This document shows, in pieces, positions 14,631 to 46,029 of a DNA stretch of 53,546 bases. Where the stretch lies: the NCBI GenBank assembly GCA_029260575.1, contig JAJDDB010000033.1, positions 1-53,546 on the forward strand, written 5' to 3'. Below the pieces are notes generated by a model, which searched no databases, was not told where the DNA came from, and saw only the letters and a list, made by a program, of their open reading frames with translations. Source of the stretch: Phycisphaerales bacterium (lineage in GTDB: Bacteria; Planctomycetota; Phycisphaerae; Phycisphaerales; SM1A02). A program made the translations under genes and the position numbers. The first letter of the stretch is position 1. Each line of letters opens with the position of its first letter.

Positions 14631-14637
14631 TGAGCAA

Positions 14638-26333: not shown

Positions 26334-26449
26334 TTTCTGTTGAAATATACTGAATAAGACCATTTACAACTTGATAGCTTTTGCTTTCTAGGTATCAGTT
26401 GTCGTGCTGACGCGTGATCAGCAATGCCAATTCAGAAAGGAATACACAA

Positions 26450-26857
26450 ATGGCAACGACAGCGAAGAAGAAAACAGCATCATCGAGTGCACGCCCGCCA
26501 AAATCAGCCGCTGCGTCGAAGCGTAAGGCGAAGACACGGCCACCTACGGAGAGGAAGGCGACTGCACGGCCATCGAAACCAAAGACACCCAAACCCGCTG
26601 AAACGCCTCCGACGGCGGCGAAGATTAGTACGAGCATTCTTGACGCTGCCATTCGCGTCTTGCAAGAGGCCAAGAAACCAATGCGATGCAAGGACATCAT
26701 GGAGCAGATGCTCGCTCGCAAGTATTGGACAACGCAAGGTAAGACACCGGCAGCGACGCTCTACTCATCGATTTTTCGTGAGATCAAGACCAAGGGCAAG
26801 GATGCACGGTTCAAGAAACTAGAGCGTGGACTGTTTGCATTGAACCCAACGAAGTGA
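26450..26857 (+). CDS. Histone H1-like tail fused to a HARE-HTH winged-helix domain
   Basis: A 135-residue DNA-binding protein with AAAGGA ahead of the ATG. Residues 1-60 are a disordered Lys/Ala/Pro/Thr-rich tail (AKKKTASSSARPPKSAAASK...) like eukaryotic H1. Residues about 62-133 form a HARE-HTH domain (SILDAAIRVLQEAKKPMRCKDI, MEQMLARKYWTTQGKTP, ATLYSSIFREIKTKG, KKLERGLFALN). HARE-HTH modules are known from chromatin factors, RNA polymerase delta subunits and restriction enzymes; planctomycetes often have such stand-alone versions. It is likely a nucleoid-associated protein. A terminator follows 27 bp downstream. Confidence 0.85.
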   Translation: MATTAKKKTASSSARPPKSAAASKRKAKTRPPTERKATARPSKPKTPKPAETPPTAAKISTSILDAAIRVLQEAKKPMRCKDIMEQMLARKYWTTQGKTPAATLYSSIFREIKTKGKDARFKKLERGLFALNPTK

Positions 26858-27668: not shown

Positions 27669-29636
27669 TCAATCCTCTAACAGCCACTTGTCGCGCAACA
27701 CCAACTGAATGCGTCTCGGCAGGAGCAGACCCTCCCTCGCCAGGATGCGCTCGATCTTCATGAACGCCTTCTCGCTGGTGACCACAACAATCACACGATC
27801 GAATCGGGCACGCAGGCACCTGCGGACGTTTGCCAGAACATCCGACTGTCCGGTCTCGATCTCTATAGCCACGCTCTCGTCACGCTCTCGGGCGACGAGA
27901 TCGACTCTGCCACCGTCAACCGGAGCCTCTACGGCGATTTGATAGCCTCGGCTTCTGAATGATTGGGCGTAATACTGCTGCCAAAACGCATGGGTTATTG
28001 ATGCGCGATCAATTGTATTGCCATGCTGTGAATCAATCGCATGGCGTACTGGCCGAGAGATGCGGAGCAGCACCCGTCGTGTTCGACCGATGGCTACGGT
28101 CTCCTCATCGAATATTCGCCGTTGCACAAGCCCACGCTTCAGCCGTGTGCCCTTGTCGCCACTGAAGCCAAGCCGCTTGTAGCGCCTGTCCACGCCATCG
28201 CGAGGAAACTTCAACACATCCTCTATGAATGACGATTCGTCTTCGCCTATAGACCAATCCTCAACCCGAAACCCCAACACGTCCGCACGTGTTGCCGACA
28301 CACGCCGTCTCAGGGCCGAGCGTGTCAGATTGCCGTGACAGAGGCTGAGCAGCAGGTCGTCCGTCACCGCCCCCTTGTCGAGGTTCACGTGCGGGATCTG
28401 AACGAGGACCGGCTCACGCAAACGATCCTGCAATTTCACGATCGCCTGACCGACTGGTAACTGCGAAATGAATCGCCTGTCAGGTTCGTCAACGCCGGAG
28501 ATGCCGGCAGCAGCCTGAATGTCGCCCGGATCCTTGAGGTTCAGGCACAGTGACGTGTAGGTGTTACCTAGTACGGCCGACGATATCAAATGTGGATGCT
28601 GATCGACCACAACCATGGCAATGCCGATCTCTCGACACTGCCGCATAAGCTGGTTCATCAACGACTCTTTGGTTCGGCGCGGCCCTCTATAGAAAACGTG
28701 ATGGGCCTCCTCGACGATGATCACAAGTTGTAGCTGCTCGCGCTTCCGCGACGACAGTAGAACGTTGTAGAGCCACAGACAGAGAATTGGAACCAGGAAT
28801 GACTTCACATTCGCTGCAAGTGCATCAAGTTCAATGATGCTGCTGGTCTTGACCAGCGATTCAACCAGGTATTTCTGCGTAACAGGCTTGTTCGATTCAA
28901 CACCGGCGAGATGAACACTCTCCACAGCTCTCGTTGCCGAGATCTTCCATCCCCGGATGCGTTCGCGATCCTTGATCAGTTCAACCTGTCTGAGGATCTC
29001 ATCAGTTGATGGTGTGAGGTTGCCTGCCGCGTACACAGTACGCAGTGCCTTCTGGATGATGCTTGTAGCCCCATCTCCAAGCGTGAACGCCGCAGCAAGT
29101 GCATCAACAACATGATTGGCATACACGCCTGGCTCCAGACCGGGTGGAACGGCGAAGGCATTGAACTGCAAAGGTGCAATTGAGCGACCGGGTGTGTGAA
29201 CTCGAACTTGACGCTTCAGGTGTGGAAGAAGGTGTCGTGCGGTGCGCTTCCAATCAAGGAAGACCCATGGGATGTTGAGCGTTTCGAGTTGCCGGATGAT
29301 GTGAAAGACCGCATTGGTCTTGCCGGCCCCTGAGCGCCCGAAGATGGCCATATTCTGGAGCAGTTCGTCTTTGGAGATACCAAGCGGCCATCGCTCTTTG
29401 TCGTACAGAAGCGTTCCTAGTTTGATTGGCCCAGATGCTCTCTTCTTTGGCGGCAGAGAGAGCAGCAGTTTGCTCTCGTACTCCCCAAACGCATGACGCG
29501 CCGTTGAAACGAGTTGTCGGTCCAAGAGAATGCGCAGTTCTGAGTCTGCGTGTTCTCGCGTTCGCTTCCAGCGTCGGACCTGTTCGGGTTGCAGTGGTTT
29601 GAGCCTCTGCGCCAACCGTTCAACGTCCATCGTCAT
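27669..29636 (-). CDS. HerA-like ATPase fused to a PD-(D/E)xK-like nuclease domain
   Basis: A 655-residue protein (ATG 29636 taken; TTG at 29672 and ATG at 29630 possible). Residues about 75-420 form a HerA/FtsK-type hexameric ATPase: Walker A AIFGRSGAGKTN, Walker B LVIIVEEAHHVF, an arginine-rich NQLMRQCREIG and the sensor VVVDQHP. The C-terminal 130 residues (YQIAVEAPVDGGRVDLVARERD, then SVAIEIETG) resemble a restriction-endonuclease fold with Asp and ExE acidic residues; the usual Lys is not obvious. HerA proteins pump DNA for nucleases such as NurA or Sir2 partners in defence and repair. Here both activities appear in one chain. It ends an operon that carries two DNA methyltransferases, so a restriction role is likely. 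Confidence 0.88.
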   Translation of the reverse strand: MTMDVERLAQRLKPLQPEQVRRWKRTREHADSELRILLDRQLVSTARHAFGEYESKLLLSLPPKKRASGPIKLGTLLYDKERWPLGISKDELLQNMAIFGRSGAGKTNAVFHIIRQLETLNIPWVFLDWKRTARHLLPHLKRQVRVHTPGRSIAPLQFNAFAVPPGLEPGVYANHVVDALAAAFTLGDGATSIIQKALRTVYAAGNLTPSTDEILRQVELIKDRERIRGWKISATRAVESVHLAGVESNKPVTQKYLVESLVKTSSIIELDALAANVKSFLVPILCLWLYNVLLSSRKREQLQLVIIVEEAHHVFYRGPRRTKESLMNQLMRQCREIGIAMVVVDQHPHLISSAVLGNTYTSLCLNLKDPGDIQAAAGISGVDEPDRRFISQLPVGQAIVKLQDRLREPVLVQIPHVNLDKGAVTDDLLLSLCHGNLTRSALRRRVSATRADVLGFRVEDWSIGEDESSFIEDVLKFPRDGVDRRYKRLGFSGDKGTRLKRGLVQRRIFDEETVAIGRTRRVLLRISRPVRHAIDSQHGNTIDRASITHAFWQQYYAQSFRSRGYQIAVEAPVDGGRVDLVARERDESVAIEIETGQSDVLANVRRCLRARFDRVIVVVTSEKAFMKIERILAREGLLLPRRIQLVLRDKWLLED

Positions 29637-30057
29637 ACTGTGCGAGTAGTTCGTGTCTTGCGACCAATCCAACGAGTCGATTGTGCAATCCCTGCATATG
29701 TTGTTCGTGACTCATTGCGAGACGGCGACGTTCTTCACCAATGCGATGCAGTTGACGTTGGAACTTCTCGCGCTCCGGAAATCGATACGGACTGTAGCGC
29801 GGTGTCCGCTGCTCCATCTGCATAAGCTCTGTGCCGATTGAGCATTCGACATCAACCAGATCGTGTCTGAGCCTTTGATCCAGCAATCGGTGTTGTGCTA
29901 TCTGATTCAGAACGAGTGCTATCTCTTGCACCATGACATGTGTCGCGTCCGGCCTATTCGATGAGTTGCTCTGCATATGAACGATTCGCCTTGCACGATT
30001 CTCCAGATCATCTGTGAAACTGATGCTGTGTTGTGTTCTTGTCTCCAGGTCAGCCAT
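29620..30057 (-). CDS. Small helical coupling protein between methyltransferase and HerA ATPase
   Basis: A 145-residue, highly charged, all-helical protein. Its ATG lies inside the methyltransferase 3' end (8-bp overlap) and its stop lies inside the HerA gene start, so the three are translationally coupled. Stretches such as LNQIAQHRLLDQRLRHDLVDVE and FQRQLHRIGEERRRLAMSHEQH suggest coiled coils. No known family is recognised. The position suggests a subunit that bridges modification and ATPase/nuclease components. Confidence 0.75.
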   Translation of the reverse strand: MADLETRTQHSISFTDDLENRARRIVHMQSNSSNRPDATHVMVQEIALVLNQIAQHRLLDQRLRHDLVDVECSIGTELMQMEQRTPRYSPYRFPEREKFQRQLHRIGEERRRLAMSHEQHMQGLHNRLVGLVARHELLAQYDDGR

Positions 30058-30820
30058 TCATCTGTTTTGCCTTAGAGCCTGCCGCTCTCCCCCCTTTCAA
30101 TCGTGTCTTGGCAATGTCGATGTATTCAGAATTGAGTTCAAAGCCAATGAAGTGCCTGCCCTGCTCTTTCGCAGCCGCAGCAGTTGTGCCGGACCCCATG
30201 AACGGATCGAGAACGAGATCACCGGGATTGGAACTGATTCGAACAAGCTTCTTGATGAAATCCAACGGCTTCTCGGTGGGATGCGTCGTGCTCTTGGTGC
30301 GAATCGACCATTCATGCACATTGCGGGCTTCACGCTGCTCAGGGAAGTTGAACGTTCCCTGCCTTCCCTTGGTCAGATACATGCACAGTTCAAAGCAACT
30401 TCGCCAACTATTCTTGAAGAAGCTTGGTACTGCCGTAGTCTTGACCATCGCCAATTGATTGCGATACGTGAATCCACGCGCAATTGCCTTGCGAATGAAG
30501 TACCCGTTGTCCTGGCGGGATGTAAACATGTAGAACGCTCCGCCCGGCTTCAGTACGCGATAGCACTCACTGATGACCTGCATGAGAAGGATGTCGTGGT
30601 CGAATGGGTGCAGGCAATCCCACTGGCCCCAGGCTTCCATCGTGGACATGACCCTGCCGTGCCTGATCGTCGTCTTGTTCTTGCCGGCGACGTTGTAGGG
30701 TGGATCAGTAATGACCAGATCGATTGACTCGTCGTCAAGACGCCGTAGTCCTGCAATAGCATCCATGCAGTGAATTTGATCGATCGCGAGTTGTTTGCTC
30801 GTCGCATTTGGCTTGCTCAT
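30050..30820 (-). CDS. DNA methyltransferase (DPPY class, beta-type)
   Basis: A 256-residue N6-adenine/N4-cytosine-type DNA methyltransferase. The catalytic motif IV is LVITDPPYN near residue 40 and the SAM-binding motif I is LVLDPFMGSGTTAAAA near residue 205, an order (IV before I) of the beta group. VHEWSIRTKSTTHPTEKPLDF precedes motif I as usual. No separate target-recognition domain is large, so the specificity is within the core. The start has no Shine-Dalgarno; a TATA-like CTTTATGAAC is centred 25 bp upstream. Likely the protective modification partner of the HerA-nuclease downstream. Confidence 0.93.
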   Translation of the reverse strand: MSKPNATSKQLAIDQIHCMDAIAGLRRLDDESIDLVITDPPYNVAGKNKTTIRHGRVMSTMEAWGQWDCLHPFDHDILLMQVISECYRVLKPGGAFYMFTSRQDNGYFIRKAIARGFTYRNQLAMVKTTAVPSFFKNSWRSCFELCMYLTKGRQGTFNFPEQREARNVHEWSIRTKSTTHPTEKPLDFIKKLVRISSNPGDLVLDPFMGSGTTAAAAKEQGRHFIGFELNSEYIDIAKTRLKGGRAAGSKAKQMNG

Positions 30821-30840
30821 CTGACGATGAACAGAATCTG

Positions 30841-30850
30841 CTTTATGAAC
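30841..30850 (-). promoter_or_regulatory. TATA-like box upstream of the DPPY methyltransferase
   Basis: GTTCATAAAG when read on the gene strand, centred 25.5 bp before the ATG at 30820, with no Shine-Dalgarno between. One of a repeated series in this island. Confidence 0.5.
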
Positions 30851-30882
30851 TTACAACTGAATTGGCGCCGCAAATCCAGTAT

Positions 30883-31671
30883 TCATTGAAGCGGCTTCCA
30901 TGAGTACCAGTCCCGAATCTCAAGCCGCTCTGCCCAAGCGTCGCTGAGAAGGCGATCGCCCAAATGATCCGCACTAAGGTTCCTTGTATTGAGTACCGAT
31001 TGAAGTTCATCGGCAACAGCAGAAGCTTCATGGTTCTTGAGGGGAGCAGGCACTGATTCACCGAGAATCTCGCACCATTCATGCAAGAGAGCCAGGTCCA
31101 TCGCTGCACTCTTCATGTACAGAGCCAAAGGTCGTGATGAACCAATCGGCGATCCTATCTGCATTGCCAGTTCACCAATGTATTCAGCGAGAACAGCTCG
31201 CTGCCGATCACGATGCTCGGGCAATTGCTCGGCAATGTCGTGCTCAACTCGAATGTCACGTGGCAAGGACGTCACCTGACGGAGCAAGTCGTAATACAGA
31301 AACCGGCTGACTTCTTCGATGCCCGCATCACTCGCTCGCTCATGCTTTGATCGCAGCTCCTGCTCATATCGTTCGGGCAATCGATCAGGCTCTACAGGCT
31401 CAGGAATCGTTCGCTCTTGTGCCGGTACCTGCCAGAAGCGACGAATCTTGAACGCGGCATTCACAACCAGATGCACCTTATGCCTCTCATAAGTGGGCAG
31501 GTACAGGAGTTCGTTGAAGTTCCGATCACCGGAAGCCAGGTGTACTGCCGAATCAGACTGCAGGTTCTCGTCCGCCGTGACGAAGAACGCGAGATTCGAG
31601 ACGCGCACAGCATCCTTAACGACTTTGACTGCGTATTCTGGCAACTCTCCTGGATCAATGCTGCGAACCAT
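30883..31671 (-). CDS. Unknown island protein, tandem paralogue B
   Basis: A 262-residue protein not recognised as a known family. It aligns over most of its length with the next gene upstream: ELPEYAVKVVKDAV, KVHLVVNAAFKIRRFWQ, RTIPEP, LP(E)RYEQEL, LLRQVTSLPRDIRVEHDIAEQLPEHRDRQ, and a C-terminal SDAWAERLEIRDWYSW. The pattern is of a helical, soluble protein. The HLVVNAAF.I region occupies the place where ImmA/IrrE-like zincins carry HExxH, but no such motif is present here, so any enzymatic role is speculation. It lies between the methyltransferases in the island and is preceded by a TATA-like box. Confidence 0.8.
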   Translation of the reverse strand: MVRSIDPGELPEYAVKVVKDAVRVSNLAFFVTADENLQSDSAVHLASGDRNFNELLYLPTYERHKVHLVVNAAFKIRRFWQVPAQERTIPEPVEPDRLPERYEQELRSKHERASDAGIEEVSRFLYYDLLRQVTSLPRDIRVEHDIAEQLPEHRDRQRAVLAEYIGELAMQIGSPIGSSRPLALYMKSAAMDLALLHEWCEILGESVPAPLKNHEASAVADELQSVLNTRNLSADHLGDRLLSDAWAERLEIRDWYSWKPLQ

Positions 31672-31691
31672 GCATGATCAAGACAGCATTC

Positions 31692-31701
31692 ACATATAAA
31701 T
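31692..31701 (-). promoter_or_regulatory. TATA-like box upstream of paralogue B
   Basis: GATTTATATG on the gene strand, core centred about 26 bp before the ATG at 31671. No Shine-Dalgarno precedes that ATG. Confidence 0.5.
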
Positions 31702-31763
31702 CTGTCGTCGTCCCATTGCAATAGCCGCATCAACCAGATGTCGGTCGAATCGCAACGATGGAG

Positions 31764-32576
31764 TTATGACGTGTCAACCGCAACTGTTTCGCTCACTTCG
31801 AGCGGAGTCCACACAAACCACTTCTGCATGCCCAGGCACTTGGCCCAAGCATCAGTAACGGAACGATCGCTCGCATGCCCTGATAATGGAGTTGCATTCA
31901 GATTCGCGTCGAGATTTCCGCAATGCGTACTATTGATCGACTCCTGAAATTCAGCTGGCAACGGCTTGCCTGCGATCACGCACAGTTCCCTCATGAATAG
32001 GGCATTCAAGGCATCACGTTTGGAATTGAGGCCCCGTGGCAACATGGCATCAGAACGCGGTCTCAGGAATCGCGATGTGTCAGCAATCCGATCAGCGAGA
32101 TATGCATGCTGTCGATAGTGGTGTTCCGGGAATTGATCTGCAATCTCGCGTTCGATTCGAATCTCCATTGGGCTCGTCGTGAGTTGCTTGACCATCCCAT
32201 TGAAGATCAGCATGCTCGCTCCGAGCACAGTCGACTCATCTGTCTGAGGATGCAGATCACGAAGCTGAAGCTCCCAATATCGAGGCAGACGCGACAAGCA
32301 TGGCTCGGGTATCGCCCGGTGTTCAGGTGAGTCCTGCCACACACTGAGTATCCACAGAGCAGCTTTGAGAACCAGATGCACTCGATGTGTGCGTGCCTTC
32401 GGGCTGGATCCGAACTGATGAAAGTGCTGCGTTGCATCGGCTATTCGCAACACACACTCACTCGTCAAACTGGAGTCTTCATAGATACCGAACGGCTTGC
32501 CCGTAACAGAAACAACTCGTTCAACCACTTGAAGTGCATAGTGCGGTAGGTCACTCAGGCGAATCTCTTGCGTCAC
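31764..32576 (-). CDS. Unknown island protein, tandem paralogue A
   Basis: A 270-residue protein beginning with GTG, paralogous to the gene 92 bp downstream. Shared blocks are DLPHYALQVVERVVSV, RVHLVLKAALWILSVWQ, EHRAIPEP, LPRYWELQL, MVKQLTTSPMEIRIEREIADQFPEHHYRQ and TDAWAKCLGMQKWFVWTPLE. The conserved PEHR/PEHHYRQ and the terminal DAW block make this a genuine family, but I know no function for it. A 12-bp palindromic TATA-like box lies exactly 25.5 bp before its start. As with its sister, the local duplication within a methyltransferase cluster suggests subunits of the same machine, perhaps specificity or sensing components. Confidence 0.8.
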   Translation of the reverse strand: MTQEIRLSDLPHYALQVVERVVSVTGKPFGIYEDSSLTSECVLRIADATQHFHQFGSSPKARTHRVHLVLKAALWILSVWQDSPEHRAIPEPCLSRLPRYWELQLRDLHPQTDESTVLGASMLIFNGMVKQLTTSPMEIRIEREIADQFPEHHYRQHAYLADRIADTSRFLRPRSDAMLPRGLNSKRDALNALFMRELCVIAGKPLPAEFQESINSTHCGNLDANLNATPLSGHASDRSVTDAWAKCLGMQKWFVWTPLEVSETVAVDTS

Positions 32577-32595
32577 GAACGCGCATTGTCATACA

Positions 32596-32607
32596 GGTTT
32601 ATAAACC
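32596..32607 (-). promoter_or_regulatory. Palindromic TATA-like box upstream of paralogue A
   Basis: GGTTTATAAACC, a perfect 12-bp palindrome, centred 25.5 bp before the GTG start at 32576. The stretch before it on the gene strand (CCGAAG) is purine-rich as in an archaeal BRE. Confidence 0.55.
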
Positions 32608-32637
32608 CTTCGGTCGGCAGATCATGATCGGCGTGGA

Positions 32638-32883
32638 TCATGGATCGAGTTCAGACACAGCCTGCTTGTGAATGTCCTGCTTCAGGTTGCCATTTGTTGC
32701 ATCGCCAAATTCAGTTCCGAGCTGTTCCAGGTCGGCAATGGGATCGAATGGCACCGCCAGGAGTTTCAGACCATCGGGTTTTTCGAGAACGATGAACTGC
32801 TCGCCGTACTGCGCTCGAATCCTCCTACTTAGATAGAGCCTGCCTTTTGGGTCACATCGTGTTGAAAGCATCTTGAACTGCAT
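32638..32883 (-). CDS. AbrB/SpoVT-like DNA-binding protein
   Basis: An 81-residue protein (ATG 32883; ATG 32871 is the alternative; the frame is open to 32934). The swapped-hairpin fold is recognisable: STRCDPKGRLYLSRRIRAQYG, then EQFIVLEKPDGLKLLAVP, followed by DPIADLEQLG as in stand-alone archaeal and bacterial AbrB-like regulators. It lies between the TSPPYW methyltransferase (71 bp) and paralogue A (61 bp). A likely role is transcriptional control of the island cluster or of a toxin-like component; no toxin gene of the usual PIN type is adjacent. Confidence 0.75.
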   Translation of the reverse strand: MQFKMLSTRCDPKGRLYLSRRIRAQYGEQFIVLEKPDGLKLLAVPFDPIADLEQLGTEFGDATNGNLKQDIHKQAVSELDP

Positions 32884-32898
32884 CAACCAAGCAAGGCA

Positions 32899-32908
32899 TC
32901 TATATGAA
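32899..32908 (-). promoter_or_regulatory. TATA-like box upstream of the AbrB-like gene
   Basis: TTCATATAGA on the gene strand, centred about 20-21 bp before the ATG at 32883. It is the least well placed member of the island series. Confidence 0.35.
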
Positions 32909-32954
32909 CGTACCGGTGATGCTTGAAGCCTCACATTCGTTGTCTAGGGCGAGG

Positions 32955-34211
32955 CTACGCCGCATTCATAGCCTTCACATTCTGAAGGCGTTGGTTGGCA
33001 AGCTTCACATAGTCCGGGTTAATCTCAAGTCCAATGAATCGACGCCCAAGTCGTTTGGCGACAACAGCAGTTGTGCCCGAACCGACGAACGGATCAAGGA
33101 CCAGACCATTGGCCGGACATCCTGCTCTGATCGGTCGCTCACAAAGCTTCTCCGGAAACACAGCGAAGTGCGCGCCTTTCCGTCTTGCCGTCGAGATGTC
33201 CCAACAGTCTGCTGGGTTTTTCCCCTTCGGTGAGAGCCATCGCGGATCACGTTCCTGAACGATGCGAGCTTCACCACCTGGCGGATGGCCAACCCACCCG
33301 CTTCCACTTGGCACCTTGACCGCTCCCCTGACGCCGATCATCGCGCCAAGTGAACGTGTCTCAGGCGAGATGCTCCAGTAGTCAGCAGGATTCTTGCCTC
33401 GAGGGTGCATCGCATTCGCTTCACCCGGAGACGGCGGCAGACGTCTGCCATGTACGTGATGCGCCGAACGTGGCTGAGAAGGCTTCGCATTTGCCGGTAT
33501 CTTGGCAAGACACTTGTGTGGAACACGTACAGCATCAAGATCGAAGAAGTAGCGTTGCGCCTTTACGAACATAAGCAGATGCTCCCATGAGGAGGTGAAT
33601 CGATCCTTCACACTTGCCGGCATGTGATTAGGTTTGTGCCAGACGATGCGATTGCGAAGTAGCCAGCCGCGCTCAAGCATGCCCAGCATGAACCGCTCGG
33701 GAATACAACACAGTGATTTCTTGCGCGATGTGGGCAGGAAGGATGAAGGCGGCCGAAATGATGTATCAGGTATGCCCTGCTTGAGCCACGGCTTGCTGTT
33801 TGTGCCATTCAAGCGCTGATTCATCACTACCCCGTTGGGACCATAGTTTCCCCAACTGCCTGCGTACGTGTCGCCGAGATTCACCCAGCATGTGCCTGTA
33901 GACTTGAGAACGCGCTTCACATCGTCAAAGATCGAGAGCAAATGCCTGGTGTACATCTCGTACGTCGGCTCCAATCCGAGTTGACCACGCCAGGCTCCAC
34001 ACTGAGTGCAGTGTTGATCACTCTGTTTTGGTCGTGCTTGCCATTCATGCTTACAGGATTCATCGCCATCCCAGATGTTGACGCTGGCATCGCCGTAATC
34101 TCTTGCGCTCCAGTACGGCGGCGACGTGATGACGCAGTCCACCGACTCATCGGATAATTTCCGGAGCCCTTTGCGGGCGTCCAATGTGTGAATTGTATTG
34201 ACGGCAAGCAT
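32955..34211 (-). CDS. DNA N4-cytosine-type methyltransferase (TSPPYW) with zinc-ribbon insert
   Basis: A 418-residue beta-class DNA methyltransferase. Motif IV is CVITSPPYW near residue 30, the TSPPY form typical of N4-cytosine enzymes; motif I is LVLDPFVGSGTTAVVA near residue 380. A four-ligand zinc ribbon (ESCKHEW ... HCTQCGAWRG) follows motif IV, then LGLEPTYEMYTRHLLSIFDDVKRVL. The central 200 residues contain duplicated blocks KNPADYW / KNPADCWDIS that probably contribute to target recognition. It is the first gene of the minus-strand island cluster. No Shine-Dalgarno; an AT-rich TATA-like box lies about 28 bp upstream. Confidence 0.93.
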   Translation of the reverse strand: MLAVNTIHTLDARKGLRKLSDESVDCVITSPPYWSARDYGDASVNIWDGDESCKHEWQARPKQSDQHCTQCGAWRGQLGLEPTYEMYTRHLLSIFDDVKRVLKSTGTCWVNLGDTYAGSWGNYGPNGVVMNQRLNGTNSKPWLKQGIPDTSFRPPSSFLPTSRKKSLCCIPERFMLGMLERGWLLRNRIVWHKPNHMPASVKDRFTSSWEHLLMFVKAQRYFFDLDAVRVPHKCLAKIPANAKPSQPRSAHHVHGRRLPPSPGEANAMHPRGKNPADYWSISPETRSLGAMIGVRGAVKVPSGSGWVGHPPGGEARIVQERDPRWLSPKGKNPADCWDISTARRKGAHFAVFPEKLCERPIRAGCPANGLVLDPFVGSGTTAVVAKRLGRRFIGLEINPDYVKLANQRLQNVKAMNAA

Positions 34212-34306: not shown

Positions 34307-34365
34307 ATGGTGCCGCCTCTTGACAGTTGTTCTGCTGCAGATTGAGTCAGACTCGTTGTCGAAAG

Positions 34366-34375
34366 CTATTTATAG
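34366..34375 (+). promoter_or_regulatory. TATA box with BRE-like GAAAG upstream of the WD40 gene
   Basis: CTATTTATAG centred 25.5 bp before the ATG at 34396, immediately preceded by CGAAAG. This is the closest match in the window to an archaeal BRE-TATA element; there is no Shine-Dalgarno. Confidence 0.55.
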
Positions 34376-34395
34376 ATCGAGTACTTCGGTTGAAA

Positions 34396-35367
34396 ATGCG
34401 ACACGAAAAACCTCCTACTGCTGATCTTCCTCGGTTGGTAGCGACACTATCGAAACATGAGGCGTGCGTGACTCGTCCATGTTGGTCGCCAGATGGCACG
34501 ATGTTGGCCACCCCCGACGATGCCGCTCATATCCGTATCTGGGACACTCGGAATCTTGGGGTCAAACATGTACTTGTAGATCATGAAGACCTCGGAAGAC
34601 ATTCGCGCATCTACGATGTTGCATGGTCGCCCGATTCCACTCGACTCGCCGTTGTTGCTGATGACAGCATTCTGCGAGTATGGGATGTCGCAGCAGAGAG
34701 CATCGAGATGTCAATTGATGTTCGAAGCCGCATGCATAGTGTCGCCTGGTCCAATGATGGTCAGTACGTAGCAGTAGGATGTCGAGACGGGGTGGTGCGC
34801 GTCCTGCAATCAGACGACTTGACGTCACACCGTCATCTTGAGAGACATTCAGATTGGGTGAATGCTGTAGCGTGGAGCCCGAATGGAAAAGAACTTCTCT
34901 CGGTTGGTGGAGATTCCGACTGCACCGTTCGCATGTGGGATGTGGACAGCAGCAGTGTTCTTTGGAAGCGATCACACTTTGATTACGTCCTTCACTGCTG
35001 CTGGTCTCCAGATGCAGAGATGGTGGCGTCGTGTTCCAACGACGGTGAAGTCAAGGTCTTGAACGCTCGAGACGGTGAAGACATCATCCGACTGCAAGCC
35101 CATCGAGATATGGTCAAGGCTGTTTCGTTTTCAGCAAACAGCAGAATCCTTGCATCGAAATCAAGAGATGACACCGTCCGATTGACAGACGTGAAGCTGA
35201 AATCCGAAATCGGAGTCATCCAAGAGCCTGCATCGGGGCGATGGCCGGCCGGTCTTGCATTTCATCCTTCGCGATTGCTGCTGGCAACACTTGGAGTCAA
35301 CACATCTCATGGACGAGATACAGCTGTTCGGATTTGGGATGTCTCTGTGTTGAGTTCGGGCGATTAA
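34396..35367 (+). CDS. Seven-bladed WD40 repeat protein
   Basis: A 323-residue stand-alone WD40 propeller. Seven repeats can be read, each with a WSPDG-like turn and a closing (R/K)(I/V)WD-like strand: CWSPDGTMLATPDDAAHIRI, VAWSPDSTRLAVVADDSILR, SVAWSNDGQYVAVGCRDG, VAWSPNGKELLSVGGDSDCT, CCWSPDAEMVASCSNDGEVK, VSFSANSRILASKSRDDTVR and LAFHPSRLLLATLG. There is no signal peptide, effector domain or membrane segment. It converges with the CHAT-domain gene 67 bp away. In bacterial conflict and signalling systems WD40 propellers serve as sensors or scaffolds for proteases, so a partnership is plausible but inferred from position only. ATG 34396 is chosen by its TATA box. Confidence 0.9.
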   Translation: MRHEKPPTADLPRLVATLSKHEACVTRPCWSPDGTMLATPDDAAHIRIWDTRNLGVKHVLVDHEDLGRHSRIYDVAWSPDSTRLAVVADDSILRVWDVAAESIEMSIDVRSRMHSVAWSNDGQYVAVGCRDGVVRVLQSDDLTSHRHLERHSDWVNAVAWSPNGKELLSVGGDSDCTVRMWDVDSSSVLWKRSHFDYVLHCCWSPDAEMVASCSNDGEVKVLNARDGEDIIRLQAHRDMVKAVSFSANSRILASKSRDDTVRLTDVKLKSEIGVIQEPASGRWPAGLAFHPSRLLLATLGVNTSHGRDTAVRIWDVSVLSSGD

Positions 35368-35434
35368 TTGTTTGACGTAACTGCCCATACAAGCTTGGCC
35401 AAACTTTACGATCCCAATCGAATGAAGACGTGAT

Positions 35435-36514
35435 TCACTTTGTGTCGCGTGAGTTTCTCTGATCGTCGGGCGGTCGTACAATGAAAAGCGAATCTGCATC
35501 AACATCCGGTCCAGTAAATAATTCAGGAACGGCGCTGTTTGAAATCCCTTCCATCATAAGAATAGCTTTCGATTGCTCGAATGCCTGATGCACAGACAGT
35601 CCGAATCCGATTGCTGAATAGAATTGTGCCGCAAACACTCTCGCAGCATCGTCATCGATCTCGTTCGTCATGCCAACGGCTGCATCAACATGGGAAATAA
35701 CCGCCTCAGCTTGCTCACGCGAGTAGCACGTGTTGAAAAACACCAGTTGGATCGCGCCTGAACACGCCAGCATGGTCTGCACAATGGCTTCCTTGCTCAC
35801 ACACTTTGCCTGACCACGATCATCCGTGAAGACAATGTCGCCATCTGGTGAGCCGTGACCGCTAAAATGAATTATGGTGGGGCGAAACTCGTTTATTGCC
35901 TGAAGTACGTCGGTTGGCTGCACAGCCCAGCTCGACCGGAGGTCCACCGAGTCTCTATGCTCGGACAAGCGAATCTTCTGTGAAATCGAACGAACCTCTT
36001 CATCCAAAGCTAGGGGTTCAGTATCTCGAGGATTGGCTGCGAGAAAGAGCACAACGATTTTTTCGGGTAGTGCCAGCATCGCTTCAATCGTTGTCAGTGT
36101 GTGATCGTGCAGTACATCATGTTTTTCAACAGTATCCGTGATCTTCTTCAACTGCTGTGATTGTGCATGCTCCTTGCGCTTCAGATGTTTCCTCTGCTCT
36201 TTCTCCTCCCGTTCTCTGGCTCGTCCAAATTTCGTTTGCGCGTCATGGAGATTCTTCTGTTTCATCGCAATCTTTGTCTCAATGTCGGCTAGGCTTTTTT
36301 CGACACGAACAAGTTCATTATTGAGTCGATCTTGTTCCCTCAGTTTGGCATCTATGACGGACACACTTGAAGTTCTGGATGCGGCTCGAGTCGATGCGTT
36401 GATCTTGCTGACTAGATCTGCTCGGCGCTTGCCCTTCTGTCCCTTATTCCTTTGCAAAGTCGTAAACGCTGATTGAATCTGTTGAACCTGCCGTTGGTAC
36501 ATGCTGCTTGACAT
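35435..36514 (-). CDS. Coiled-coil CHAT-domain (caspase-like) protease
   Basis: A 359-residue protein. ATG 36514 is chosen for GGAGAG eight bases ahead; the frame is open to 36760. Residues 1-165 are a long coiled coil (LNNELVRVEKSLADIETKIAMK, REREEKEQRKHLKRKEHAQ). Residues about 170-350 form a CHAT domain: VVLFLAANPRDTEPLALDEE opens it, the catalytic His is in IIHFSGHGSPDG and the Cys in LVFFNTCYS, followed by AVGMTNEIDDDAA and FYSAIGFGLSVHQAFEQ. CHAT proteases act as effectors or processing enzymes in bacterial death and defence pathways (for example with gasdermins or CRISPR type III). Neither partner is present; the WD40 neighbour is the best candidate sensor. Confidence 0.9.
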   Translation of the reverse strand: MSSSMYQRQVQQIQSAFTTLQRNKGQKGKRRADLVSKINASTRAASRTSSVSVIDAKLREQDRLNNELVRVEKSLADIETKIAMKQKNLHDAQTKFGRAREREEKEQRKHLKRKEHAQSQQLKKITDTVEKHDVLHDHTLTTIEAMLALPEKIVVLFLAANPRDTEPLALDEEVRSISQKIRLSEHRDSVDLRSSWAVQPTDVLQAINEFRPTIIHFSGHGSPDGDIVFTDDRGQAKCVSKEAIVQTMLACSGAIQLVFFNTCYSREQAEAVISHVDAAVGMTNEIDDDAARVFAAQFYSAIGFGLSVHQAFEQSKAILMMEGISNSAVPELFTGPDVDADSLFIVRPPDDQRNSRDTK

Positions 36515-36738
36515 TTGCGACTCTCTCCGCTTAGCGATTTCCTCCAGATCCATGGAGTATAGGCTTGACCAAGATCGCTCAGCCACCAATTCCAATAGCG
36601 CGCGCAATCTAACTCTGGGCCAACTCTCTGTGCGGCAAGAGGTCAGGCAGATGCTCTCCTGCACCATCCAAAACCTTATAAAGCCCACCATCGATGCGCC
36701 TGTAATGACAGCCTGAACAAAGCTGTCGTGCCGGCAAA

Positions 36739-37236
36739 ATGACAAAGGAACTATCACCAACCTCGAACGCTCATGGCTACGGCAGTGGCCTTTGCTACAG
36801 CTTGGCGCTGTTTCTGACGCATGAGGCCAATTTCAAATATTCAATTGCAGAAGTCGAGATGATGGCAGCCGAAGGAGCACTATCGTTCGATGAACGGGAG
36901 CGAGTTGATGTCGAGCATGTGCGTAACGTCACCCAGAGGCTTGCCGCAATTCGTTGGTTCACTCATGCAGTACACCCAATCAGGAATCTAGTGATCCCAG
37001 ACTCCCTTCCAGCTTCGATCAGGCACCGTCTCACCGCACTGCAGCAGAAGTGCGTGGCCTGCACACTCCCCGAACATGACGGCCAACCAACACCGAAGGA
37101 TGTCGCGTGGGCGCTCGACGAAACACGAGAACTCTTGCGCCAGATTGACGAATTTCATGACGTCGCCACTGTGAAGGAGAACCCAAGTGTCAGCAGGAGA
37201 AGAGAGCCGGCGCTCGTTTTCAATGATCGGCACTGA
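36739..37236 (+). CDS. Conserved hypothetical protein near the CHAT gene
   Basis: A 165-residue soluble, mostly helical protein. It begins with GSGLCYSLALFLTHEANFKYS, whose LCY.LA.FL.HE pattern looks like a conserved helix of an uncharacterised family, then has LPASIRHRLTALQQKC and PKDVAWALDETRELLRQIDEF. No enzyme motif is complete (the HE is not followed by a second His). It is divergent from the CHAT gene. The start ATG has no clear Shine-Dalgarno, and a CTTATAAAG lies 60 bp upstream, not at the distance seen for other island genes. Confidence 0.65.
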   Translation: MTKELSPTSNAHGYGSGLCYSLALFLTHEANFKYSIAEVEMMAAEGALSFDERERVDVEHVRNVTQRLAAIRWFTHAVHPIRNLVIPDSLPASIRHRLTALQQKCVACTLPEHDGQPTPKDVAWALDETRELLRQIDEFHDVATVKENPSVSRRREPALVFNDRH

Positions 37237-37310
37237 GAAGATTCTCGAACCGCCTCATAGAGATAGAGCTTCTTCAATAATCGCGAATAAGCGCGCTTTA
37301 GGATTCTGCA

Positions 37311-37607
37311 CTAATGGCCTGCTGCGCTATACACGATTCGGCCACCTGTTCCATCATCCACGGCATAGAGTTCCCGCACCTCCGGAGCAGTACCGCCCTC
37401 TCGTCTTTCTGCCTGGGCTAACAGATGACAGAATGTTGCCGGATGCTTTCTCGTAAGATCTACGACGTACTGCGCTGTCACGTAATCAGCGACGCGGATA
37501 TCAGCCCGGTCGCCTACAGCCAGTGCTGCACCGATGGCCTGAGCCAGATTAACTAATGTGACGTGTTCGTTTGATTCACTTTCATCTCGTGCCGCGTGCG
37601 TGCTCAT
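37311..37607 (-). CDS. Small hypothetical protein
   Basis: A 98-residue acidic protein (LVNLAQAIGAALAVGDRADIRVADYVTAQYVVDLTRKHP is read in overlapping parts; main helix block DYVTAQYVVDLTRKHP). No family recognised. Support comes from the start context: it is divergent from the gene at 37657, and the TATA-like CTTTATTAAG is centred 25 bp before its ATG, as for other island genes. The N-terminal dozen residues are low complexity. Confidence 0.55.
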   Translation of the reverse strand: MSTHAARDESESNEHVTLVNLAQAIGAALAVGDRADIRVADYVTAQYVVDLTRKHPATFCHLLAQAERREGGTAPEVRELYAVDDGTGGRIVYSAAGH

Positions 37608-37626
37608 CCCATACCATTGATGCCCG

Positions 37627-37638
37627 CCTTAATAAAGG
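37627..37638. promoter_or_regulatory. Near-symmetric TATA-like box between divergent genes
   Basis: CCTTAATAAAGG is centred 24.5 bp before the ATG at 37657 (plus strand) and 25.5 bp before the ATG at 37607 (minus strand), so one element sits at the island-typical distance from both starts. Confidence 0.45.
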
Positions 37639-37656
37639 TAATCGAGGGTCCCGGCG

Positions 37657-38433
37657 ATGTCTGATTCCGAATCTCAACCCCCTGTTCGCCAACCTCGTCG
37701 CCCTTTCGATGACGAACTCATACGCGCGATACGAACAGTTCTTCGCCTGATTCCATATGGGATCGGTGCGGCACTGGACGTTCAGATCTTTGACCGAATA
37801 GCCGCACGCGACGCTGAGCGCATGCAAGCCTTCATCGAAGAATTATCTCGCCGCATTGAATCACTCGATGCACAACAGGCATCACTCCTGCGGAAGGATT
37901 TTCTTGACACGGATGAGTTTCGCTACATCTTGCGTGAAGTGTTGTGGCGAGCTGCTCGTGAACACCGACAGGCGAAAATCGATGCGTTCCACGCGGTGCT
38001 GGTCAACAGCATGATGAAGAACCCAGCCCTGCACTTTGACCGGAAGGTGTTCTTTCTCGAAGTGCTCGATGCATTGACCGTTGATCACATTCACCTATTG
38101 AAGCATCTGCATCGACAAAGAGCCGTACTCGGTGTCACTGAGCGCGAATCTGTATCAACAATCTGGGAGTTGTTTCACGCGAAGGATGACACGACACGGC
38201 GATATGTGTATTCGGGGCTGGACACGCTTGCCAATCGACAACTGATTGCAGTTGGCCCGATTCCCTTGGTTCTTGACCGTAGAGTTGACACGGTTACGTC
38301 CGATCCCGACGAGCCTGGAGCAGTCGAATTCAGATCCATCGATCAGTCGCGCCAGTCATATGCGATTACCGATCTCGGAATTGCATTCGTTGCCTTCATC
38401 ACGCTTCAGAGAATCAACGAACTGATTCAGTGA
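37657..38433 (+). CDS. Uncharacterised helical protein with C-terminal winged-helix-like part
   Basis: A 258-residue soluble protein. The N-terminal half is helical and charged (ARDAERMQAFIEELSRRIESL, TDEFRYILREVLWRAAREHRQ). Residues about 130-200 (LDALTVDHIHLLKHLHRQRAVLG, YVYSGLDTLANRQLIAVG) and the terminal YAITDLGIAFVAFI look like a winged-helix module, where an ITDLG-type strand is common. GAGGG nine bases ahead of the ATG could serve as Shine-Dalgarno in addition to the TATA-like box. Similar architectures occur in hypothetical proteins of mobile islands; no function is assigned. Confidence 0.72.
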   Translation: MSDSESQPPVRQPRRPFDDELIRAIRTVLRLIPYGIGAALDVQIFDRIAARDAERMQAFIEELSRRIESLDAQQASLLRKDFLDTDEFRYILREVLWRAAREHRQAKIDAFHAVLVNSMMKNPALHFDRKVFFLEVLDALTVDHIHLLKHLHRQRAVLGVTERESVSTIWELFHAKDDTTRRYVYSGLDTLANRQLIAVGPIPLVLDRRVDTVTSDPDEPGAVEFRSIDQSRQSYAITDLGIAFVAFITLQRINELIQ

Positions 38434-38469: not shown

Positions 38470-39057
38470 TCAGAACGCGCTATGTGCGGGAGCATGAGAC
38501 GCGTAGAGAAGTTGCCGGAGGCTGCGTCCGACAGAAGTAAGGTCGTAGAGTGGATGCTTCTTTTTTCTAAGCAGGACCGGTTGCACAATTCCTTTTGCCA
38601 GGTACAGGCGGATAATGTCCCGGACATTATTGGCGCTCATCCGTAGGTTCGGATCCTGCTGCAGTGCTCGTCGCTTGATCTCCGATGGTTGGAGGGGATG
38701 ATCAAGTGCTTTGATCACGGCAGACCGATGACTGTGACATACCCAGCCGTAGAGATCCCAGTCTACGATCGGGAAATCGTGATCGAATTCCGGAAGCCCT
38801 TGGTCTCTGCGCAGATGTAGTTGAATTTTCTGACCGATGCCGGTCAGCCAGTACACCCTCGATCGCACCGAACAACTGTTCATGCACATTGCCAGACCGT
38901 GCTGCTCAAGCATCCGCAGCGCATGACTCATTTTTCCAAGCGGTATGTCAAATCGCTGAGCAAGCTGCCGGGCAGTCACGGGTTGCATCATGCGTTCAAC
39001 GATTCGCCGACGCAACTGGCTTCGCTGAACACCATCCGGTATTCCTACCTCTTTCAT
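38470..39057 (-). CDS. Double winged-helix DNA-binding protein
   Basis: A 195-residue protein with two winged-helix modules. Module 1 (about 10-75): LRRRIVERMMQPVTARQLAQRF, IPLGKMSHALRMLEQHGLA, VYWLTGIG. Module 2 (about 105-185): SHRSAVIKALDHPLQPSEIKRRA, MSANNVRDIIRLYLAKGIV, PLYDLTSVGRSLRQLL. Both have the TxLG/LTxxG wing ending typical of MarR/ArsR-like regulators. No ligand-binding part is visible. It probably regulates island genes. It is convergent with the gene at 37657 and divergent from a small zinc-finger gene. Confidence 0.78.
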   Translation of the reverse strand: MKEVGIPDGVQRSQLRRRIVERMMQPVTARQLAQRFDIPLGKMSHALRMLEQHGLAMCMNSCSVRSRVYWLTGIGQKIQLHLRRDQGLPEFDHDFPIVDWDLYGWVCHSHRSAVIKALDHPLQPSEIKRRALQQDPNLRMSANNVRDIIRLYLAKGIVQPVLLRKKKHPLYDLTSVGRSLRQLLYASHAPAHSAF

Positions 39058-39214
39058 TCACTGATTGTGTCGATTCATCTTCTTATTGATTCAACTGATC
39101 TGCGCTACCCTCACTTCCCGCCTCCGGTAGCCAACAACCTCCACCTGCGTCATCACCGACATTTGCCATGCAATTCAGTTCAACGCTTTTCAAGAAGCCT
39201 TCGGTAGTGTGAAT

Positions 39215-39424
39215 ATGGATGATGATGAACACGCACCGTGCAAATGCGATCAGTGCAGACGGGGACTGAACTTGGGCGTCAATGTCTACCGCGCTGAGGA
39301 CGGCGTGATCGGCCCCCGGGGGTTCGTCTCACTGGACCAGCCGCAACTGTTCTGCTGTGAATCCTGCCTGCGAGACTTCTATGATGATGTGGATGTGTTG
39401 AGACTTCCAAAACGAATTCCGTAA
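39215..39424 (+). CDS. Small zinc-finger protein
   Basis: A 69-residue protein (ATG 39215; GTG 39209 possible) with two cysteine pairs: CKCDQC near residue 9 and CCESC near residue 47, enough for one treble-clef-like zinc site. The acidic start (MDDDEHAP) and the FVSLDQPQLFCCESCLRDFYDD block suggest a metal-stabilised protein-binding module. Unknown function. Confidence 0.62.
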   Translation: MDDDEHAPCKCDQCRRGLNLGVNVYRAEDGVIGPRGFVSLDQPQLFCCESCLRDFYDDVDVLRLPKRIP

Positions 39425-39454
39425 TCGACCACATGACGTGGTGTGGCCGGACCT

Positions 39455-39892
39455 TCAGTTGAGTTCGTCGTAGATTGCATCAAAGAGACGTCGTGCCTCG
39501 GTCAGTTCATTCAGTCGATCTACGTCTTGCCCACGGTCGAAGTTGTACAACGTTTCAACTGCATCATGTTCCCCACCAAGCACTTTCAGAAGTATGTCAC
39601 TGCGCCGCACATGGATAGAGAGCTTCGAGACTTTACCGCCTTGAATGCCGAACTTGGACGGTTCGCTGAAGAACTTGATGTCCGCTCGGACTTCGGGCTT
39701 CTCGGCATAATGACGTTCAGGCAGATAGACGGCCATGACGCCGTGTCCATCCGGACTCCATTCAACTGAGTAACCACGTTGAATGAACTTCAGAGCCTTC
39801 TCGCGCTTGTACTGCTTCCATGCTTCGAGTTCATCGCGAGTGCCCTCCCAGAGAATGCCGTCTTCATGGATTCCGCCGTGCTCACTCGTCAT
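39455..39892 (-). CDS. Hypothetical protein
   Basis: A 145-residue mixed alpha/beta protein without a recognised domain: WEGTRDELEAWKQYKREKA, a beta segment YSVEWSPDGHGVMAVYLPER, then ADIKFFSEPSKFGIQGGKVS and an acidic helical end (RLNELTEARRLFDAIYDEL). ATG 39892 is preferred over the TTG at 39904 because the TATA-like GCTTAAATAC is centred exactly 25.5 bp upstream and no Shine-Dalgarno is present. Confidence 0.65.
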   Translation of the reverse strand: MTSEHGGIHEDGILWEGTRDELEAWKQYKREKALKFIQRGYSVEWSPDGHGVMAVYLPERHYAEKPEVRADIKFFSEPSKFGIQGGKVSKLSIHVRRSDILLKVLGGEHDAVETLYNFDRGQDVDRLNELTEARRLFDAIYDELN

Positions 39893-39912
39893 CGTTATAG
39901 ACAAGCATGAGA

Positions 39913-39922
39913 GTATTTAAGC
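39913..39922 (-). promoter_or_regulatory. TATA-like box upstream of the 39455-39892 gene
   Basis: GCTTAAATAC on the gene strand, centred 25.5 bp before ATG 39892. Confidence 0.5.
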
Positions 39923-40224
39923 ATTGTGAACAACGATGCTGATATGCCGAAAATTCATGACGAGTTCAATTCAATCAATATTTTCCGGCACCACAATCTT
40001 TATAAAGTCTGCATTCTACTTGCGCCATACATAATGCACGCAGGCTATACACTCGCATGTATTCCCATGCAATGTGATCTGAATCGATCGCGCCTCGGCA
40101 GAGGCTTTGAACCTTCTGGTTCACACGCAAGGGGTTTGTGAACTCCAATCGACCGAACCAATTGGATCACACATCCCTGGAGGCTTGATCCGATTTTGTT
40201 CGTGATGCAGGAATTCAGTTGAGT

Positions 40225-40234
40225 GCTTATAAGC
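40225..40234 (+). promoter_or_regulatory. Palindromic TATA-like box upstream of the integrase
   Basis: GCTTATAAGC, a perfect 10-bp palindrome, centred 25.5 bp before the ATG at 40255. No Shine-Dalgarno lies between. Confidence 0.55.
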
Positions 40235-40254
40235 GCTGCGGCATTCATAAACAG

Positions 40255-41689: not shown

Positions 41690-42286
41690 TTACTCTCTTG
41701 TTCGTGTCAATTGCGCTTTGGCCCATTGCCGCCAATGTGACGTTTCACCACGCAAAGCGATCTCTTTCAGATACCCTGTGGTTTGATCATTCTCGCGATC
41801 GTGTCTGATCTGGCAGCGGCACAAGGCCTGGATCGTGGGAAGATGGTTCGGATACACCTCGAGCGCAGTCACGTACGTTTCTATGGCGTCATCAATGCGG
41901 CCCACCTGTTCGAGTGTCAGTGCAAGATTCATCCTTGGATCAGGATGGCCGGGCATGAGTTTGCGGGCCCACTCAAACTCGTTTGCTGCCTCGTAATACT
42001 CCTGCTTGGCGAGAAGCACGACGCCGAGATTGTTGTGCGCGGGCCCGTAGTACAGATCTGCTGTGAGTGCCTGTTGGAGGAGTAGTTCTGCTTCGTCAAT
42101 CTTCGCATCATCCAACAGCGCCACTGCTTCCAATGTGAGTTGCTGTGCTTTCTGCGGATCGCGAGCAGATTCTGACGGTGGTGAATACGGACTCGTCGTT
42201 GCCTTGGGTTGCAATTCACAACCGACCACCAATAGCGAGCTGAACGCAAGTACGAGACAGCAATATCGAGACAATCCATGAATCAT
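41690..42286 (-). CDS. TPR lipoprotein at the end of the type II secretion operon
   Basis: A 198-residue lipoprotein (signal LVLAFSSLLVVGC, Cys23) with three to four tetratricopeptide repeats: ALLDDAKIDEAELLLQQAL, HNNLGVVLLAKQEYYEAAN, PRMNLALTLEQVGRIDDAI, TIQALCRCQI. Its ATG overlaps the upstream stop by four bases, so it belongs to the secretion operon. Outer-membrane TPR lipoproteins of this type (PilF/PilW-like) act as pilotins that guide secretins to the outer membrane, which is the likely role here for the GspD protein. Confidence 0.85.
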   Translation of the reverse strand: MIHGLSRYCCLVLAFSSLLVVGCELQPKATTSPYSPPSESARDPQKAQQLTLEAVALLDDAKIDEAELLLQQALTADLYYGPAHNNLGVVLLAKQEYYEAANEFEWARKLMPGHPDPRMNLALTLEQVGRIDDAIETYVTALEVYPNHLPTIQALCRCQIRHDRENDQTTGYLKEIALRGETSHWRQWAKAQLTRTRE

Positions 42287-45637: not shown

Positions 45638-46029
45638 GGCATCTTGTCCTCGCTCGGCTCTTGCAATCGACGAAGAACAAAGGAGTCCCGCCATTGAACA
45701 GCCAGCCAGGCAAATTCGACTGTTTCATCAGAAGCATTCAGTCGTTTGACGATGATCGGTGTGGCATCCGGTGACTCCGGCCAATCGATCGTAACGTGAT
45801 CAAATACATGAATGTCGTCGATGCCGTACGCAGCAGGATCATCAAGTAAAGTGTCAGCGAATGTATCGAGATCAACATGTACATCAGCTGAGTCTTCGTG
45901 CTCGAGTGATGCGCGTGCCTGCACCATGAGAGGTGTTGTGGATGCAGCAAGCAATGCCAGCATCGCTGTGGCAAGCAGAACTTCAAGTAATGTCAATCCA
46001 CGCCGGTTAGTCACGCTGCCCCTCCTCAA
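45634..46029 (-). CDS. gspI: Type II secretion minor pseudopilin, GspI-like
   Basis: A 131-residue pseudopilin with prepilin peptidase site NRRG|LTLLEVLLATAMLALLAAS (Glu5 conserved; TLLEVL is typical of GspI). The globular part is short. It overlaps gspH by 23 bases upstream and gspJ by four bases downstream, consistent with translational coupling. Confidence 0.8.
   Translation of the reverse strand: MRRGSVTNRRGLTLLEVLLATAMLALLAASTTPLMVQARASLEHEDSADVHVDLDTFADTLLDDPAAYGIDDIHVFDHVTIDWPESPDATPIIVKRLNASDETVEFAWLAVQWRDSFVLRRLQEPSEDKMP

Follow-up and report, generated by a model that had tools for sequence, protein, structure and literature searches.

A contig of a Phycisphaerales bacterium (JAJDDB010000033.1; the window, below, is the whole stretch of 53,546 nt analysed) carries at positions 27669-34211 seven open reading frames (ORFs) that an earlier note had proposed to form a single defence system: two DNA methyltransferases (MT1 and MT2), an AbrB-like protein, two tandem paralogues (parA and parB), a small protein and a HerA-like ATPase fused to a nuclease domain. 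All seven ORFs were confirmed in this interval, on the minus strand. We propose that the cluster is probably part of an integrative mobile element, with the HerA motor-nuclease in its backbone and the methyltransferases protecting its DNA. This reading is favoured because a tyrosine recombinase (Int) and a winged-helix protein track the HerA-nuclease, and because the genes of a slot beside the motor turn over. If correct, what looked like a seven-gene defence system would be a mobile element, with a conserved motor-nuclease driven by ATP and a slot of swapped protective modifiers, and one could test whether HerA motor-nucleases act for such an element by moving, guarding or destroying DNA.

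The more constant partners of the HerA-nuclease

Gene neighbourhoods were compared at 30 loci, the window and 29 loci with close HerA-nucleases (identity of at least 41% in one search, or of 42-48% in the other). These were L033-L037 and 24 loci chosen from 80 (L052-L071, L073, L074, L076 and L084); L072, which is the same locus as L036, was excluded from the counts. Twenty-four of the 30 loci, window included, have at least 3 kb upstream of HerA. A gene for a tandem winged-helix protein (38470-39057 in the window, minus strand) was present at 22 of them, the small protein encoded next to HerA (29620-30057, minus strand) at 21, and a Cys-rich, zinc-like protein of 71 aa (39209-39424, plus strand, divergent from the winged-helix gene) at 18. 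A recombinase (in the window the tyrosine recombinase Int, 40219-41439, plus strand) was found at 14, 11 belonging to one single-linkage cluster and 4 to another, with L062 having both. The winged-helix, zinc-like and recombinase genes (38470-41439) fall outside the interval of the earlier note. As for the small protein, the gene was found where the note placed it, and its description as helical was made by eye, with no support from a tool. Gene order varies: at L061, L066 and L071, HerA is followed downstream by the small and winged-helix genes, which run the opposite way, and at L074 the methyltransferase is downstream of HerA.

A second scan covered 99 HerA loci, some of which are the same place twice (L082, L106 and L108 repeat L039, L041 and L047). 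MT1- or MT2-type genes were matched at 12 of the 99, parA/parB at L078 only, and the AbrB-like ORF (P0006; 32638-32934, minus strand) at none. The label of this last ORF was given by eye alone and found no backing, as there was no match in Pfam, PADLOC, NCBIfam or PHROG. We conclude that the seven genes are not one conserved system, and that the more constant partners of the motor are the small, winged-helix and zinc-like proteins and the recombinases. A single seven-gene defence system, as a conserved unit, was rejected on this comparison: the small protein does travel with the HerA-nuclease and the methyltransferases do so in part, but parA, parB and the AbrB-like ORF do not. Independent scattering of the homologues, which the earlier note named as a refutation, is thus borne out in part.

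The same association was observed in 392 genomes of the phylum, scanned at E ≤0.001. Matches were found to the HerA-nuclease in 39 genomes (many of them weak or partial), to the winged-helix protein in 8, to the par proteins in 7 and to Int in 4. Winged-helix matches of at least 80 bits occurred in 7 genomes, one in each, and all were near a HerA-nuclease or a remnant of one, at less than 2 kb in six genomes and at 8.8 kb in the window. Conversely, all six genomes with a HerA match of E ≤1e-140 carry the winged-helix protein. Genomes whose HerA relatives are 30-35% identical have no match to it, the exception being G093, where the winged-helix match adjoins a second, remnant HerA. Int was matched above 300 bits in the window and at two G093 loci only, both less than 3 kb from a HerA-nuclease or remnant. 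At one locus of this genome (L156, G093:C60), a HerA remnant, MT2, and the winged-helix, zinc-like and Int genes stand in the order and directions seen in the window; the small protein was not matched there.

A variable slot beside the motor

MT1 (32955-34211, minus strand, 418 aa) and MT2 (30050-30820, minus strand) occupy the slot that separates the winged-helix gene from the motor. Both were named as methyltransferases in the earlier note and are of the beta class: MT1 has SPPY (within TSPPYW) and DPFVGSGTT, MT2 has DPPY, and both match Pfam N6_N4_Mtase (E 1.8e-51 and 3.7e-41). MT1, to which the note attributed a zinc ribbon, has a Cys-rich insert, CKHEW...CTQCG, which was recognised by eye only. 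The best 25 PADLOC matches of each methyltransferase (out of 84 and 71 families) are all type II or orphan methyltransferases.

In relatives, the slot holds MT2, MT1, both, MT2 with ArdC, a Mom-like gene, other genes or nothing. Of the 24 loci that extend for 3 kb or more upstream of HerA, an MT1- or MT2-type gene was scored at 10, a Mom-like gene at 3 and ArdC at 3, always together with a methyltransferase; at 11 loci, no methyltransferase, ArdC or Mom-like gene was present in the stretch available. Over the whole table of 30 loci, ArdC was found at 5, DUF2958 nearby at 4 and RadC at 3. The ArdC of L057 matches Pfam ArdcN (2.6e-32) and MPTase-PolyVal, and the Mom-like protein of L053 matches PHROG 1384 (1e-28). 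At L073, the slot contains a PD-Lambda-1 gene on the other strand, between the winged-helix and small genes (8057-9562); a capP-type gene lies further on at this locus (15122-16117). A HerA tree of 27 rows was used to follow the slot, 23 of them with a slot label (L074 being labelled as having a methyltransferase despite its position downstream of HerA). This tree, which is weakly supported, requires at least 7 changes in the presence of a methyltransferase and at least 10 in the content of the slot.

ArdC counteracts restriction, and Mom is a DNA modifier with which phages do the same. Because the same slot holds ArdC or a Mom-like modifier in relatives, MT1 and MT2 most likely protect the DNA of the element from host restriction, rather than being the modification half of a restriction-modification (R-M) system. 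In the proposed mechanism, they would shield the element's DNA from the restriction enzymes of its host.

A rather unlikely alternative, close to the interpretation of the earlier note, is modification-guided restriction, in which MT1 and MT2 (Mom in relatives) would mark self, and the HerA motor-nuclease would pump along and cut unmarked DNA. The highest-ranking structural matches of the ATPase do include SIR2-HerA, HerA-DUF4297 and further anti-phage HerA complexes, and the C-terminal domain resembles BamHI, EndoMS and PaqCI. Methyltransferases and Mom both modify DNA, which suits restriction as well as protection and in this respect counts against our reading. The last three genes also overlap in the window, as had been reported, by 8 nt for MT2 and the small gene, and by 11, 17 or 53 nt for the small gene and HerA, depending on whether HerA starts at ATG 29630, ATG 29636 or TTG 29672. 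Finally, defence genes are found among the neighbours at related loci. The slot itself speaks otherwise: 11 of the 24 loci have no modifier gene in the stretch available, 5 of the 30 have the anti-restriction ArdC, methyltransferases come and go along the HerA tree (at least 7 changes), and the backbone is linked to recombinases. The claim that the seven genes work as one system in which modification marks self is not supported by these counts, and the earlier interpretation as a whole is partly supported. If our reading is right, neighbourhoods combining methyltransferases, HerA and a nuclease can be anti-restriction, not restriction.

The motor-nuclease: fold, proposed role and known relatives

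The HerA-nuclease (27669-29672, minus strand) is composed of an ATPase part (around aa 80-430), a winged helix (around 477-547) and a C-terminal domain (around 559-660). The ATPase is of the HerA type of the FtsK-HerA superfamily: it matches Pfam DUF87/HerA above the cut-off (3.3e-7), HerA structures rank top in the fold search, and the model of the whole protein resembles HerA, HerA-NurA, SIR2-HerA, DndH, VirB4 and TrwB. Residues K118, D140, E321, E322 and R347 of the ATPase are invariant in 50 of 50 aligned homologues, and so are H561, E582, D591, E604 and E606 of the C-terminal domain.

AlphaFold2 modelled the whole protein with a predicted local distance difference test score (pLDDT) of 91.2, and the C-terminal domain alone with 93.4. 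In the model this domain has the order alpha-beta-beta-beta-alpha-beta, which is the PD-(D/E)xK core. Comparisons with VIA-align gave Z 10.5 with AF1548 (root mean square deviation, rmsd, 2.8 over 94), 9.4 with EndoMS (rmsd 3.5 over 102), 8.5 with PaqCI and 8.3 with BamHI (rmsd 5.2 over 104), values to be read with the warning of the tool that Z of 7 to 8 is common even between unrelated models. Given this caveat, the assignment is based on the agreement of fold order, residues and many nucleases. With Foldseek, the top three matches were R2 retrotransposon proteins (E 2e-4), followed lower by Bax1, SfsA and OkrAI. A profile of the domain had no convincing match among solved structures, designed proteins being best, and then Cas4, AF1548 and Hjc (E 0.01-0.07), all three of which we take to be PD-(D/E)xK nucleases. 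The motif reads ExE where (D/E)xK is expected; such a replacement is the BamHI-like variant. We conclude that, in the predicted structure, the C-terminal domain has the PD-(D/E)xK fold announced by the earlier note, and that it is a predicted nuclease; the other refutation named there, lack of a nuclease fold, does not apply. Several distant members of the HerA family are shorter or lack the ExETGxS motif.

A mechanism can be proposed on this basis. HerA subunits would form a hexameric ring pumping double-stranded DNA, and their C-terminal domains would cut the pumped DNA, perhaps with the help of the small protein, the fused winged helix aiming the cut. The separate winged-helix protein and the zinc-like protein may control expression or excision, and together with the recombinase, the small partner and HerA they would make up the backbone. 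The motor-nuclease would most likely process or move the element's own DNA, in transfer or maintenance. This is the least certain step of the scheme; pumping and cutting in the service of the element is suggested by the fold, the residues and the company of genes.

We consider quite unlikely that the element is instead maintained by an end-resection or replication-restart machine similar to HerA-NurA, in which HerA would pump at breaks and the fused nuclease resect. Sulfolobus HerA and the Thermococcus HerA-NurA complex are among the best structural matches, and more distant members of the family adjoin Orc1/Cdc6-like ATPases. However, NurA is encoded separately and differs in kind, and five close loci, L033-L037, showed no member of the Cdc6-like cluster. 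Archaeal HerA-NurA does share with the window the association of a HerA motor and a nuclease, but here the nuclease is a fused PD-(D/E)xK-fold domain accompanied by a small partner, and there is no NurA.

Other systems were compared as well. The gene set matches no described defence system, in line with the earlier note. HerA-SIR2 and HerA-DUF4297 (Nezha-type) systems likewise combine a HerA ATPase, with a strong structural match, and a destructive effector, but the effector is there a separate SIR2 or DUF4297 protein and is here fused to the C-terminus. They were rejected, as the NCBIfam profile HerA_antiphage scored 41 for a cut-off of 800, and no SIR2 or DUF4297 PADLOC profile was matched by the five proteins other than the methyltransferases. 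Type II R-M systems also have beta-class methyltransferases beside a PD-(D/E)xK-fold nuclease; here, the nuclease sits on an ATP-driven motor, often without an adjacent methyltransferase, and no separate restriction endonuclease gene was recognised among the seven. BREX and DISARM operons are marked by PglZ, BrxC or Drm genes, and no such PADLOC profile was matched by the five proteins other than the methyltransferases (P0001, P0002 and P0004-P0006) or stands among the best 25 matches of either methyltransferase; both systems were discarded. MADS is a set of eight genes, mad1-mad8. In the window, mad8 alone matched HerA (E 5.5e-9), ranking below four other HerA profiles, and this system was discarded; at related loci, neighbours match mad3 (2 members, one at L071 12340-14415) and mad6 (1 member).

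The best NCBIfam profile for the ATPase core was CedD (E 8.1e-23), at 81 bits for a cut-off of 600. According to the part of the source available, CedD of the crenarchaeal Ced system is essential for DNA import (PMC11868833). The CedD profile has 527 positions and goes no further than the ATPase part (match at 199-525), so that a fused nuclease is unexpected in CedD. Archaeal islands and integrated elements are reported to contain an integrase, a winged-helix protein, a HerA-like helicase (arCOG00280) and Orc/Cdc6 (PMC4158269, PMC6563490, each as far as available). Genes of these kinds are found here too; the host belongs to another domain, however, and the available parts of these sources mention neither a HerA fused to a nuclease nor an anti-restriction slot with changing content. 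A literature search limited to titles and starts of abstracts, with preprints and most subscription journals outside its range, returned no description of this gene set. The kind of element is therefore already known from archaeal examples, and the present variant appears new within the literature searched.

Among PHROG families, the HerA protein matches a terminase large subunit (1.8e-11) and a family of unknown function (1.5e-16). A search of plasmids with HerA returned 12 records at 21-27% identity, none spanning 80% of the protein. At L059 (17628-19768), L066 (257-2379), L074 (19635-21817) and L037 (44-2646), the motor is accompanied at 6-10 kb by another HerA-like ATPase, next to a gene for a Cys-rich partner. 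The HerA-nucleases of L061, L063 and L066 are 73-77% identical, and their metagenome-assembled genomes (MAGs) are labelled Victivallales, Babeliaceae and Planctomycetota; either transfer across phyla or a binning error could account for this.

Limits of the element and its other genes

On the right side, the limit of the element could be placed by comparison with relatives. A secretion-gene probe matched in 18 of the 61 genomes searched, own genome included, and six relatives were compared. All six share the secretion genes (42283-52032 in the window, type II by eye, syntenic in the six) up to a TPR gene (41690-42286) beside Int. Past the TPR gene, none of the genes on the Int side is matched, although further on L152 has one HARE-type match and a weak one of MT2 type, and L150 one to a transposase. 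Because host synteny ends at the TPR gene, we place the right edge of the element between 41439 and 41690, before the host TPR and type II secretion genes. Int, which matches PHROG integrase (E 1.4e-15), is thus at one end and adjoins syntenic host genes, as expected for the recombinase of an integrative element.

Several points weigh against an integrative element. Int is slightly below the Pfam cut-off, and its first catalytic Arg position is occupied by N. The same N (GENI or GENV) is found in all six rows covering the position (window, L042, L062, L074, L084 and L156), and the second recombinase subfamily (L035, L036, L053, L061, L068 and L071) has R there. Only four other close loci (L062, L064, L074 and L084) match Int directly, the remaining recombinases being of the second subfamily, joined to it by single linkage in a first cluster that comprises both, or of the second cluster. 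Recombinases of either cluster are absent from 4 of the 15 loci with at least 8 kb on each side of HerA, and HerA relatives of 30-35% identity are found in genomes with no winged-helix match. The HerA tree is weakly resolved and supported, and many of the loci compared are short MAG contigs, some of them truncated. Neither exact-word matching nor short local alignment revealed convincing attachment repeats, the matches being short, no empty site and no sign of excision were found, and the left end was not located and may lie off the contig. Two relaxase families, PF03432 and PF08751, had no match in the genome of the window (95.3% complete), these being the only two searched. Lastly, a scan of IMG/VR with the HerA alignment found no relative. 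A phage origin was rejected, as no relative was found in viral contigs with either the HerA or the par alignment; capsid genes were not searched for.

The absence of recombinase at those 4 well-covered loci, and the defence genes among the neighbours, would also suit a defence island of the chromosome that has recombinases and regulators beside it by chance, but this is very unlikely, as specific Int and winged-helix families track the HerA-nuclease across the 392 genomes. The integrative element could belong, as a tentative extension, to a distinct class, mostly from Phycisphaerae, whose HerA has distant kin in archaea and other bacteria. In this class, a HerA ring that carries its own PD-(D/E)xK nucleases, together with a small partner, would possibly serve as an engine of mobility or competition, with neither a canonical relaxase nor a type IV secretion system, and the distant kin would pair the motor with Orc1/Cdc6-type initiators and degenerate zincin-like proteins.

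Defence genes were observed around the motor in some relatives. At L035, a complete QatABCD system lies downstream of the HerA-nuclease as four successive genes (12034-16649; profile E values 8.2e-208, 4e-76, 1.3e-103 and 3.1e-73 for QatA, QatB, QatC and QatD). If our reading holds, the family may help to study the spread of Qat and other defence systems within a poorly studied bacterial group. Ninety-eight PADLOC families were matched among 108 neighbour proteins (taken from 154 candidates at 16 loci, the largest and some small ones excluded) and 37 families among 67 control proteins. The control was mixed, made of 54 of the 80 ORFs of the six relatives' secretion regions plus 13 window genes, with some weak matches and one region containing Ssp genes. 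These figures do not settle whether defence genes are enriched around the motor, and we make no such claim. Suspected defence genes near HerA in L064, L066, L059 and L084 gave no match. Neighbour proteins also matched a 5-hmdU DNA kinase domain, MazG and MazG_C in Pfam, and CBASS cyclase and phospholipase profiles in PADLOC.

The tandem paralogues parA (30883-31671) and parB (31764-32576), both on the minus strand, are 33% identical and had no family match in Pfam, PADLOC, NCBIfam or PHROG, in agreement with the earlier note. By tblastn, parA had no match in phages or plasmids. Matches above 100 bits were confined to three genomes (own, G237 and G506), each of which also has HerA-nuclease relatives; in G237, par and the HerA-nuclease relative are 20-35 kb apart on one contig. 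Weak matches were found in four other genomes. L078, whose record is named Acidobacteriia bacterium, has a 60-bit par relative with HECGH, an MT1 homologue and a HerA relative, and two TPR-fused relatives, L170 (39 bits) and L171 (38 bits), have HELVH and HEATH. Neither parA and parB nor the G237 and G506 copies have the HExxH motif. Judging from these sequence comparisons, parA and parB are degenerate relatives of zincin HExxH proteins; at a guess, they may have kept a binding role after the loss of peptidase activity. An Orc1/Cdc6-like gene adjoins par in L078 and, for both copies, in G237. Such genes were seen in bacterial records at L165-L168 (G237:C222; three places, one split over two ORFs) and in L078 (17177-18238), and at both they lie near par genes, a recombinase, RadC and a HerA-nuclease.

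Between MT1 and the winged-helix gene, the window contains putative cargo (34327-38433): a WD40 protein, a CHAT-domain protein (35435-36760) resembling PADLOC SAVED_CHAT (9.6e-11) and PDC-S66, an Abi_alpha-like protein (37657-38433) whose match is weak and under the Pfam cut-off, and two ORFs with no assigned family. A DUF7678 protein (39455-39904, minus strand), also present at L055 and L084, follows the zinc-like gene. Downstream of HerA, a HARE-HTH protein (26414-26857, plus strand), whose membership of the element is uncertain, is also found near HerA in L037, L074 and L084. Two contigs of one MAG, L057 and L060, are 86% identical over 4.4 kb and end too early for their flanks to be compared. 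Finally, transposase-like ORFs were recognised by eye at 2-625, where the first is interrupted by the end of the contig, and at 9246-10430.

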